Source: Oscillatoriophycideae cyanobacterium NC_groundwater_1537_Pr4_S-0.65um_50_18
GTDB lineage: Bacteria > Cyanobacteriota > Cyanobacteriia > Elainellales > Elainellaceae
NCBI GenBank assembly: GCA_016208305.1
Contig: JACQYI010000054.1
Span: 124,001 to 188,000, forward strand
Reading direction: 5' to 3'
Length of the DNA: 64,000 nucleotides
Shown: positions 1,621 through 6,460 of the stretch, in pieces
Numbering within the stretch: the first letter of the stretch is position 1
Layout: each line of letters opens with the position of its first letter
Translations under genes and position numbers: made by a program
The notes under the pieces: generated by a model
Told to the model about the DNA's origin: nothing
Databases searched by the model: none
Seen by the model: only the letters and a program-made list of their open reading frames with translations

Positions 1621-1943
1621 ACCTGGCTCTGATATAGCCGTAGCAACTTGATTTAGGAGTTTTCGGGTGGTGCGAAGCGCCACCCGACAGCTTTCTGTCA
1701 CAGCCATAAATCTTACATAGTGGGACGATCGCTCTATTTCATCGTGAGAGCAAATTATCTCGTTCGCTAAAAGTCGAATCTGTAGCTTTTGAGGGCTTGA
1801 GATAAGAGAAGCTTCGGGTAGCGCAGTGCCCCAGGAAAGCTATGATGTCCAGTAGCATTCAAGTATTCAATGCGCTCCAATTGGAGTGTAATGGATCAGG
1901 ACATCTGCTCACTGTGTTGTTGGGGTAGTCAGCTGGGGTGGTC
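1621..1943. other. Intergenic region with a short palindrome
   Basis: This 323 bp gap separates the TPM-domain gene from cobH. The only clear structure is the GAA-loop hairpin at 1664-1686. Because cobH follows, I looked for a cobalamin riboswitch: no convincing B12-box was found. Confidence 0.5.
1664..1686. repeat. Small palindrome with GAA loop
   Basis: The sequence CGGGTGGTGC-GAA-GCGCCACCCG folds into a 10 bp stem (one G-T pair) closed by a GAA loop. It lies 44 bp after the TPM-domain gene and is not followed by a T run, so it is not a standard terminator. Its centre, GYGC-GAA-GCGC, is shared with the palindrome at 23664-23694 and closely with 58988-59034. Confidence 0.6.
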
Positions 1944-2570
1944 ATGGAGTGGCATTTAACAGACGCTCAAAGTTTAAGAATTATTGATAGCGAAATTGGC
2001 GACCACGCGTTCTCACCTTCTGAATATGAGATTGTCCGCCGCGCAATTTACGCCACAGCAGATTTTGAGTACAAATCCCTCATTCGTTTTTCGGATCAAG
2101 CCTTGCAGGCCGGGGCTGCTGCATTAGCGGCACGCAGCACGATTATTGTAGATGTGCCTATGGTGCAGGTAGGCATTGCACCCATGATTCAAAGTACGTT
2201 TGCCAATCCTGTCTATTGCAGCATGGAGGCTCTGACTCGGCCTCAGCGAGATAAAACCCGTGCCGCCTGGGGTATGGAAACCTTGGCGCGGCGTTATCCA
2301 GAGGGCATCTTTGTGATAGGGCAAGCTCAAACGGCATTGACCGCTTTAGTAGAGCTGATTGAAGCCGATGAGATTAAACCCGCTTTGGTGATCGGCACGC
2401 CCGCAGGTTTTGTAGGGGTTGACGTGGCCGTTGAGCGGCTCAAAGACTCGCTCATTCCCCATATTCGGATTGAAGGTCGCAAAGGCGGTGCCGTTGTGGC
2501 GGCCGCGATCGTCAATGGTTTAGTAGATCTGGCTTGGCAAGCCTATGGTCAAGAGGCAAATCGGCTGTAA
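1944..2570 (+). CDS. cobH: Precorrin-8X methylmutase CobH/CbiC
   Basis: CobH moves a methyl group from C11 to C12 of precorrin-8X to give hydrogenobyrinic acid (or the cobalt equivalent) in cobalamin synthesis. The 208-residue product has the full family length. The N-terminus (MEWHLTDAQSLRIID) and the YATADFEY segment, followed by the core VIGTPAGFVGV and a C-terminal GRKGGAVVAAA segment, are typical of the family. The ATG at 1944 is preferred over a GTG at 1938 because a GGGG stretch lies five bases upstream of it and family members begin with MEWH. No other cobalamin gene is in the window. Confidence 0.93.
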   Translation: MEWHLTDAQSLRIIDSEIGDHAFSPSEYEIVRRAIYATADFEYKSLIRFSDQALQAGAAALAARSTIIVDVPMVQVGIAPMIQSTFANPVYCSMEALTRPQRDKTRAAWGMETLARRYPEGIFVIGQAQTALTALVELIEADEIKPALVIGTPAGFVGVDVAVERLKDSLIPHIRIEGRKGGAVVAAAIVNGLVDLAWQAYGQEANRL

Positions 2571-2624: not shown

Positions 2625-4547
2625 CTAGATGCCCAACCGCAGCGTCCAACCCAGCAGCTTTCCTGTATCTGACGGTACCTTATCCACTAGCCGCAGTCCC
2701 CACTGTCCTGCTGAAGGCTGATCAAGCAATCTCTTTAGGGAGGGCGTTGTTTCGAGAGAATAGGTCTTGCTGAGGCGTGCCAGCCTCCCTAGACTGCGAT
2801 TTTGCAGTAAAGCAGTCTCGCCATTGGGGCTAGTCAGATAAATCTGCAAATCGCTAGCAAAGCCATGTTCTAGAGTCAGGTCGATTTCTATATCGAGAAC
2901 AGAATCAAGCGCCGAGCCAAGCTCACCCTCTACCTGAATCAAGCTAACGACCCCCTGGGGATCAGCATCTGGAATTTCGATCGCCTCTAGATTTTGCCAC
3001 TGTAGCCACCGAGCCACCAGCGATCGCTTGACTCTCTGCTGCGCTACCTGGACTGCTCTCAAGACATTGACTCTGCCATAGCCCAGACCAGAGGCATATC
3101 CGATTTTGCTGTAACCTGCTTCAGCATTGGCTGGGTCAGGATGTTTGTCGGCTGTTTCCTGCAAGATTTGTTTCACCTGCTGTGCCGTCAAACTGGGGTT
3201 TACGCTTAGCATCAGCGCCGCCACCCCCGCGACGATCGCCCCTGCCCTAGCCGCTCCACCCGCATTCGCTCTTCCCTCGATGCCAATAGCGCTAATCGCT
3301 ACGGTCTCGTCCTCTGAAGGCCAGCGATCGCCATCACCCACAGCCACCACATCTGGATGAAGCGAAAAACCATTGAGGCTGCTAGTTAAAGCATCGGAGG
3401 GAGCTGGGGCTTCAGCGCCGCTAGCGGCAAAAATCACCACACAACCTCTGCCTTGTCTACCCTGATCTGCGGCGCGAGCAATGGCCATTCGCTGTCGCAA
3501 AGACAGGGGAAAATAATCGGGTTGCGCTCTCCAGCCGCTCAAGATGACATCTGCGCTCTGCTGCGAAGCCCACTCAAACATTTCCTCGATGGACTGATCA
3601 TCGAAAAAGCCATCCATTTCAATGGGCATCAGCGATGATTTTGGGGCAATGCCCCACCTCGTTTTTTCGCCCAGGACAAGGCGAGTGTAGTCTGTACTAG
3701 AGCTTGTGGCCTCGCGATCGATCGCTTCCGATTCCAGACGGGGAGAAATTGCTTTAGCCGCAAGCAACCGAGTGAGATGAGAGAGAGACTGACGCAGCCG
3801 AAAAGGAGCCACGATCTTGCCTTCGCTTCTGAAATCAGGATGGCTAAAGTCGATCGCCTTGTCCATGACGGCCACGACCGTTGATCGATCGCTTTGGGTG
3901 ATGGCCCAAACGGATTCGAGATCAAGCGGCGCAGGGGCAATGTCAGCAGATTGGCTGGGTTCATTGCTTCTGCCTTGGGGATGCGGCTGCATGGCGGCTA
4001 CCACATTTGCCTCTGCTAACCAGACCTCTGGATAGGACAGCAGATGCTGCGTTAGCTTTAGGGGATTGGCGGCAGCACGAGACGTCACCTGAAAGACAAA
4101 GCTTTTGGCAACTCCAGGCACCAGTTTAAGAATTTGTAGCCCTAATACAGTCGTGATCTGCCTCATGCGATCGGCACTCACATCTGCCGCAAACTGAATC
4201 GTGATTTGGTCTGTCAAATACAGCGGCGCTTCTGGGCTTTTCTCCATCTGGTAGACATGGCTGGCAAAGGCGATCGCTGGGTTTGCCCGCACGGTTTGCA
4301 TAGCGGTTTCTAGGTGGCTGGCTTCTACCCGCAGTTCGGCTAGCTGCGCGAAAGGCAGGAGCCGCAAAGAGGTGGCTGCCACCTGTCGAGCCAAAAGAGA
4401 AAGCGGACTCACTGCAAAATTAGAGAGTTTGATCGTGAAGCAATCTTCTCGCTTTTGTAACGCTAAAGCTTCTCCGCCCCGCCATAAGGTCTGGCCTTCC
4501 CCCATACTGCTCTCTACCCCATTGCCTTTAACCATTTGCTCCTGCAC
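2625..4547 (-). CDS. S8 subtilase-like protein with degenerate active site, plus P-domain
   Basis: The 640-residue protein has a subtilase prodomain-like N-terminus (about 105-185), an S8 peptidase-like core (about 205-505) and a C-terminal proprotein-convertase P-domain (about 520-640). The Asp motif is present (VMDKAIDFSHPDF, Asp229). The HGTH motif expected before the WGIAPKSSLMPIEM segment (near 298) is missing. The Ser motif GTSMAAPHVAG reads GAARAGAIVAG, with Ala at 433 in place of Ser. The oxyanion Asn motif AAGN reads AASG. Three of four catalytic positions therefore appear lost while the rest of the fold is kept. I infer a pseudoprotease, perhaps a binding or scaffold protein. No signal peptide is obvious. 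Confidence 0.8.
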   Translation of the reverse strand: MQEQMVKGNGVESSMGEGQTLWRGGEALALQKREDCFTIKLSNFAVSPLSLLARQVAATSLRLLPFAQLAELRVEASHLETAMQTVRANPAIAFASHVYQMEKSPEAPLYLTDQITIQFAADVSADRMRQITTVLGLQILKLVPGVAKSFVFQVTSRAAANPLKLTQHLLSYPEVWLAEANVVAAMQPHPQGRSNEPSQSADIAPAPLDLESVWAITQSDRSTVVAVMDKAIDFSHPDFRSEGKIVAPFRLRQSLSHLTRLLAAKAISPRLESEAIDREATSSSTDYTRLVLGEKTRWGIAPKSSLMPIEMDGFFDDQSIEEMFEWASQQSADVILSGWRAQPDYFPLSLRQRMAIARAADQGRQGRGCVVIFAASGAEAPAPSDALTSSLNGFSLHPDVVAVGDGDRWPSEDETVAISAIGIEGRANAGGAARAGAIVAGVAALMLSVNPSLTAQQVKQILQETADKHPDPANAEAGYSKIGYASGLGYGRVNVLRAVQVAQQRVKRSLVARWLQWQNLEAIEIPDADPQGVVSLIQVEGELGSALDSVLDIEIDLTLEHGFASDLQIYLTSPNGETALLQNRSLGRLARLSKTYSLETTPSLKRLLDQPSAGQWGLRLVDKVPSDTGKLLGWTLRLGI

Positions 4548-5628: not shown

Positions 5629-5889
5629 ATGATTAGCTCAGAGCAGGTGGAAATGATGATTAGGGCTGGGCTACCCGATGCCCAGGTTCAAGTTCAAGAT
5701 CTGACTGGAACGCTGGATCACTACAAGGTCGTGGTTGTCTCTTCTCAGTTTGAGGGCAAACGGTTGGTGCAGCGTCATCAGCTGGTGTACGGCGCATTGC
5801 GTCAAGCCCTCTCTTCCGATGCAATCCATGCTTTGACGATGGAAACCTACACGCCTCAAGACTGGGCGCAACTAGGGCAGCCCGCTTAG
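5629..5889 (+). CDS. BolA family protein
   Basis: A small 86-residue BolA-fold protein. The helix-turn region has the sequence VVVVSSQFEGKRLVQRHQLVYGAL, split here as VVVVSSQFEGK and RLVQRHQLVY, close to the family signature of FxGxxxxxRHxxVY, including the conserved Arg-His. BolA proteins pair with CGFS monothiol glutaredoxins through a shared 2Fe-2S cluster, and such a glutaredoxin is the next gene downstream, 247 bp away. A strong ribosome site (GAGGAG) lies eight bases before the ATG. Confidence 0.88.
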   Translation: MISSEQVEMMIRAGLPDAQVQVQDLTGTLDHYKVVVVSSQFEGKRLVQRHQLVYGALRQALSSDAIHALTMETYTPQDWAQLGQPA

Positions 5890-6136: not shown

Positions 6137-6460
6137 ATGACTCCAGAAGTACAGCAACGCATTGATGATCTGGTTCAAAAGAACAAAATCATGGTTTTCA
6201 TGAAGGGCAACAAGCTCATGCCCCAGTGCGGTTTCTCTAATAATGTGGTTCAGATTCTGAACGTGCTGGGTGTGCCTTACGAAACGGCTGATGTGTTAGC
6301 CGATGCCGAAATTCGTCAGGGCATTAAGGAGTACTCAAATTGGCCGACTATCCCTCAGGTCTATGTCAACGGAGAGTTTGTAGGCGGCTCAGATATTCTG
6401 ATTGAGCTTTACCAAAAAGGTGAACTTCAGCAACTGGTCGAGGTTGCCTTAGCTTCATAG
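6137..6460 (+). CDS. grxD: Monothiol (CGFS) glutaredoxin
   Basis: The 107-residue product carries the CGFS active site (MPQCGFS, Cys near 31), the KGNKLMP segment with its glutathione-contacting Lys, the cis-Pro [16 protein letters not shown] segment and the GGSDIL loop. These are features of single-domain monothiol glutaredoxins, which bind a 2Fe-2S cluster and deliver it or sense iron status. It follows bolA on the same strand, which fits the known partnership of the two families. Confidence 0.93.

Follow-up and report, generated by a model that had tools for sequence, protein, structure and literature searches.

The gene at positions 2625-4547 on the minus strand of the window (the whole stretch of 64,000 nucleotides analyzed here) encodes a pseudo-subtilase of 640 amino acids. 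We consider it, with a probability of roughly 60%, to be a lineage-specific pseudoprotease which stays in an uncleaved pro-form, acts by binding and arose at its original site from a cyanobacterial subtilase that is syntenic and single-copy. In this reading, no duplicate at the locus is involved in the origin. The mechanism is probably non-catalytic and based on binding, and any further step presented below is inferred. The window belongs to a cyanobacterial genome of 6.94 Mb (G000); Leptolyngbyaceae cyanobacterium CRU_2_3 and Phormidium tenue FACHB-886 are among its relatives. The features of the gene and of its surroundings are given in Table 1.

Table 1. Features of the pseudo-subtilase gene and of its neighbours, with window coordinates.
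Feature	Position	Strand	Basis and remarks
Pseudo-subtilase, 640 aa	2625..4547	-	N-terminal domain, prodomain, degenerate S8 core, P-domain; GTG start
N1 domain, residues 20-103	4239..4490	-	pLDDT mostly >85; constraint like intact orthologues
N2, I9/pro-subtilisin-like prodomain, residues 104-190	3978..4238	-	Fold match to pro-Tk-subtilisin
Linker, residues 191-208	3924..3977	-	Q-W-Y-L of intact orthologues missing; pLDDT <50 at 192-206
Degenerate S8 core, residues 209-472	3132..3923	-	Pfam score compared with intact orthologue
Asp229, sole triad residue left	3861..3863	-	Orthologue alignment
Conserved block, residues 301-372, helices 317-329 and 350-362	3432..3647	-	Best-conserved core part in dead members
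Collapsed oxyanion/S1-pocket/Ser region, residues 373-436	3240..3431	-	Gly377 for Asn, Ala433 for Ser
P-domain, residues 521-640, ordinary	2628..2987	-	Pfam; block identity
TPR-like divergent neighbour, 217 aa	4740..5393	+	No Pfam match; signal-peptide-like N-terminus; conserved
BolA-like gene	5629..5889	+	Conserved synteny; named by sequence resemblance
Monothiol glutaredoxin (Grx4-like)	6137..6460	+	Conserved synteny; named by sequence resemblance
Precorrin-8X methylmutase (CbiC/CobH)	1938..2570	+	PF02570, 238 bits

Domain Organization and Loss of the Active Site

The frame is open over its full 640 codons, as the original prediction had it, and translation could instead start at the in-frame ATG codons of residues 5 and 15. 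A promoter and terminator scan gave no signal above chance. Two Pfam domains were recognized in the protein: Peptidase_S8 (PF00082, residues 221-471, 51.6 bits for a cut-off of 21.8) and P_proprotein (PF01483, residues 552-638, 51.6 bits for a cut-off of 21), the latter identifying a P-domain of the kexin/furin type. One intact orthologue scored 143.3 bits for the S8 domain and 53.1 bits for the P-domain. Thus, the P-domain of the window protein is ordinary, as had been claimed, whereas its S8 domain is degraded. The PF00082 match and Z-scores of 26-29 between the predicted model and subtilisins or furin place the protein within the subtilase (S8) fold. It lacks the full triad and oxyanion Asn of an active S8 peptidase, and no proprotein-converting activity would be expected of it without the triad.

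In the alignment to the orthologues, Asp229 was kept, the His column contained a Ser and the HGT histidine motif was missing, the oxyanion Asn column contained Gly377 and the Ser column Ala433. These are the very changes first read from the window alone (Asp229 remaining, HGTH motif missing, Ser replaced by Ala433, oxyanion Asn lost). The loss reaches well past the triad, since the Q-W-Y-L segment at the prodomain/mature junction, assumed to be the mature N-terminus in intact orthologues, was also missing, together with about 75 residues between the oxyanion Asn and the Ser. In dead members this oxyanion/S1-pocket/Ser region had a mean length of 47 residues, versus 123 in intact ones, with a tip-length ratio of 5.6. 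According to the alignment, the protein has lost its catalytic His and Ser as well as the oxyanion Asn and the junction motif, and the larger part of its substrate pocket. A sequencing or assembly error was ruled out, as other genomes of the genus are in the same state.

It could be argued that the protein is still an enzyme, its catalytic site being restored by displaced residues or contributed by a partner. The retention of Asp229 would agree with this, as would a copy from the window genus (G001, strain CRU_2_3) in which D, H and S are kept but the oxyanion Asn is lost, as are the junction motif and some of the pocket. We hold this to be highly improbable, because the His and Ser motifs, the oxyanion Asn and the S1-pocket segment have all disappeared from the window protein, and because G020 and G009 have lost the Asp as well, the region being deleted.

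Orthology and Distribution of Intact and Dead Copies

The subtilase gene is divergent from the TPR-like gene, beyond which lie BolA-, Grx4-, DUF6761-, response-regulator and ABC-ATPase genes. This gene order recurred at homologues across the family. It was also that of the majority of 80 named loci, chiefly from cyanobacteria, counting only those with flanks long enough. On the other side, the precorrin-8X methylmutase gene is the neighbour in the window genus and in G020. A conserved gene neighbour had been proposed as a check, and the TPR-BolA-Grx4 genes do stand beside the subtilase throughout the family. Members of the orthologue group share this position and full-length homology, with 36-63% identity over the alignment. 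Common synteny shows the dead and the intact copies to be one gene rather than paralogues, and therefore rules out that a paralogue was mistaken for an orthologue. The TPR-like gene was also considered as a tied partner of the subtilase; this candidate was weakened, since the gene is still present where the subtilase is gone.

The D/H/N/S residues were kept in 102 of the 115 aligned homologues. The other 13 entries correspond to nine syntenic loci of the window family (f1), three of which are listed twice, by genome handle and by accession, and to a fragment (G035) ending before the Ser. The nine loci without an intact site are those of the window genome, G003, G002 (partial), G001, G020, G014, G009, G008 and G026, so that active-site loss is common to eight other genomes, all of the same family. 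Orthologues retaining the catalytic residues had been named as evidence against a non-catalytic protein. Most homologues do retain them, but the idea stands, since the loss is confined to one lineage, where several genomes share it. In a class-wide sample the gene was present in 130 of 291 genomes, and scores against a profile of the dead set revealed no further dead member among these 130 carriers. With this profile the dead members, except the partial G002, reached at least 805 bits and the next sequence, an intact one, 731 bits, a gap that is partly due to construction as the profile was built from dead members. Also, four orthologues from outside the family (G153, G160, G166, G199) had one or two in-frame stops, reflecting decay or assembly errors, in contrast with the open frames of the dead copies.

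Selection on the Dead Genes

No stop or frameshift was found in any dead member, deep as their divergence is; a frameshift had been suggested as a mark of recent decay. Pairwise dN/dS (NG86, bootstrap 95% intervals) between dead copies was 0.15 (0.08-0.20) for G000-G003, 0.17 (0.12-0.23) for G003-G002 and 0.22 (0.12-0.28) for G008-G026, no interval exceeding 0.29, with dS near saturation except in the closest pairs. Neutral mutation to a comparable divergence introduced a mean of 18-28 stops, and zero stops never occurred in 1000 runs. These comparisons show, at the level of sequence, that the frame of the dead genes is under purifying selection. A decayed pseudogene is ruled out by the open frames, the dN/dS values and the simulation, in agreement with what had been argued from the single frame.

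Constraint is nevertheless relaxed selectively, according to block identities (mean pairwise values for the dead members, versus the seven nearest intact orthologues): N1 had an identity of 0.36 in dead and 0.31 in intact sequences, N2 0.44 and 0.51, the P-domain 0.46 and 0.52, and the helix block 301-372, the slowest part of the core, 0.53 and 0.66. The N-terminal domains, the P-domain and this helix block are the best kept. By comparison, identity fell from 0.55 to 0.23 in the Asp/His region and from 0.46 to 0.12 in the Asn-to-Ser region, the oxyanion/Ser loops being the fastest-evolving. Thirty core residues were invariant in all eight dead sequences, 18 of them between 301 and 369. The dN/dS of the S8 core was 0.12-0.16 in dead pairs versus 0.03-0.05 in close intact pairs. 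On branch lengths fitted to a fixed RpoB tree, the S8-core/N-domain rate ratio was 2.2-3.7 in seven dead lineages versus 0.06-1.22 in eighteen intact ones (p = 4e-6, indicative as the lineages are related). The N- and P-domains of the dead lineages evolved at about three times the intact median per unit RpoB. Since comparable rates were found in an intact sister clade (G016, G007, G032, G025, G034), this acceleration of the N- and P-domains is not tied to the loss of catalysis.

Structural Model and Proposed Prodomain Docking

The AlphaFold2 model of the window protein had a mean pLDDT of 81, versus 89 for one intact orthologue; these models are predictions, and the alignments behind them are dominated by intact homologues. 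As structure prediction had been recommended for checking, it is worth stating that the fold is confident in N2 and the P-domain (pLDDT mostly >90), and that the pocket loops fall below 50. Residues 199-507 of the model matched furin with a Z-score of 28.9 (rmsd 3.0, 279 residues, 17% identity), and residues 111/112-504 matched unprocessed pro-Tk-subtilisin (residues 5-398) and pro-subtilisin E with Z-scores of 27-28. Together with the like losses in related genomes, the predicted fold supports the folded, non-catalytic protein initially proposed. The claim of an intact prodomain can be refined: the I9-like N2 is well kept, but it occupies just the latter half of the N-terminal region, the match to pro-Tk-subtilisin starting at model residue 112 and residues 20-103 making up a further domain, and the junction motif is missing.

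The prodomain of subtilisin BPN' binds two parallel surface helices (PMC4865297). By sequence register, secondary structure and fold alignment, helices 317-329 and 350-362 are the predicted counterparts of these docking helices. Thus, the parts which hold prodomain and core together are kept and the cutting parts are not, from which we infer a docked, unprocessed pro-form. The protein would fold with its prodomain permanently docked on the core, and a putative partner or ligand may be bound by the conserved N-terminal and P-domain surfaces, by analogy with CspC of Clostridioides difficile. Intact orthologues probably already do some such binding, and a prior binding role would let the protease activity lapse, probably repeatedly, without immediate loss of the gene.

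The conserved parts are also those which would make a prodomain-type inhibitor, and other subtilase-domain genes are present in the genome. A dead copy could accordingly bind and regulate another subtilase of the cell, in a dominant-negative manner, by its prodomain or helix surface. We find such a role unlikely, as the window genus and G020 have no close active paralogue and the prodomain should already be engaged by the core of the same protein. Four other S8 genes were found in the window genome, all of different architecture. Contig C42 of the same genome carries a subtilase-like open reading frame (L002:1129-3459) whose later part is LysM-like by eye; its C-terminus resembles a polymorphic secreted protein, an unusual architecture.

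History of the Loss

The dead genes fell into two groups in the RpoB tree and again in the tree of the N- and P-domains, where the intact G010 fell inside one of the groups, next to the dead G014. The whole-gene tree united the dead copies with a support of 93/93, a grouping which is possibly due to long-branch attraction. A single origin of all dead copies is disfavoured by the N-/P-domain and RpoB trees, yet a single clade was not rejected (p-AU 0.119). Since G001 of the window genus still has D, H and S, the loss of the triad residues was at least in part a parallel one. The site was lost in place, probably more than once. The G001 copy (L008:721-2847) is an intermediate form, useful for staging the loss of activity.

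In G005, G013, G021 and G029 the conserved neighbours are in place but the subtilase is not, so whatever role it has is dispensable there. Such outright loss in neighbouring lineages, which the original prediction did not foresee, indicates that the gene is also turning dispensable in this branch, and the dead lineages could be moving slowly towards the same outcome. In G021, an 869-aa protein (L181:6185-8794, plus strand), with a CHAT (caspase-like) domain by eye, is encoded where the subtilase is missing, adjacent to the TPR-like gene. Several genomes of the family have a second, family-related subtilase elsewhere (L214-L224, L044, L052; open reading frames of 563-708 aa), with triad and oxyanion Asn intact in 13 of the 13 copies read. 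Four dead-copy genomes (G026, G009, G008, G014) carry such an intact paralogue at another site; none of this type was found in the window genus or in G020.

These observations bear on a slow decay, in which the protease was no longer needed in the branch, the site drifted, and the residual gene is heading for deletion under weak or recent constraint. The four syntenic absences and the strong acceleration of the S8 core speak for it, and in four genomes the intact paralogue could take over. Against it stand the uninterrupted frames, a dN/dS clearly below 1 even in the S8 core, the about equal conservation of N1 and N2 in dead and nearest intact orthologues, and the lack of such a paralogue in the window genus and G020. 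We therefore judge slow decay to be rather unlikely, and prefer the binding pseudoprotease. A more tentative extension of the latter, which we hold to be less likely than not, is that the ancestral cyanobacterial protein was already bifunctional, a non-catalytic job of the N- and P-domains remaining under selection while the protease half was switched off independently, at least two times, at the same locus. If so, a single bacterial family would hold stages from intact through partly broken (G001) to dead and deleted, and would show in a natural series how a pseudoenzyme is born without gene duplication.

Comparison With Known Systems

The usual explanation for a pseudoprotease is that a gene was duplicated and one of the two copies then lost its activity. 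In the present case, an orthologous single-copy gene lost its site in place, and intact, intermediate, dead and deleted forms occur in one family. The phenomenon is known and the example is new; the series from intact to dead to deleted is unusually clear. In the open-access literature, our searches turned up no earlier account of a cyanobacterial pseudo-subtilase with a P-domain. The constraint map shows the surfaces that matter without catalysis, which makes this series a usable test case for the passage from enzyme to binding protein and hints at an unrecognized non-proteolytic role of a widespread cyanobacterial protease.

The closest relatives are the intact syntenic subtilases of cyanobacteria, such as those of Leptolyngbya ULC077bin1 (L070), Nostoc (L075) and Fischerella (L071), which have the same locus and domain order and about 38-48% identity. 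They keep D/H/N/S, the QWYL motif and the pocket segment, whereas only the Asp is left in the window protein. Furin and Kex2 likewise have a subtilase core followed by a P-domain, and furin is among the best structural matches (Z about 28.9), but they are active eukaryotic proprotein convertases and the window protein has no catalytic site. PrcA of Anabaena (alr1381), annotated as a calcium-dependent protease precursor, is a possible relative. The prcA gene is listed with futABC (PMC3610870), while the Nostocales members of the present subtilase family adjoin TPR-BolA-Grx4. Cyanobacterial pseudo-orthocaspases, which have a caspase-type p20 domain, are also protease-dead, but they are widespread in cyanobacteria (PMC6426788) and the pseudo-subtilase is found in one branch.

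A parallel in logic, though not in ancestry, is offered by CspA and CspC of C. difficile, which have a subtilisin fold with a substituted triad and function by binding and signalling (PMC6636752, PMC12880746). The prodomain of CspC is uncleaved and docked (PMC6636752), and the window protein similarly combines a subtilisin fold, a substituted triad and a retained prodomain. In the Csp proteins, a jelly roll of about 130 aa is inserted into the subtilase domain, and they form a set with the active CspB. The window gene, on the other hand, is a single copy changed in place. In the alignment with its orthologues, the core of about 265 residues (209-472) shows no insertion of that size. The window protein further differs by its C-terminal P-domain, its much more eroded pocket and its cyanobacterial origin.
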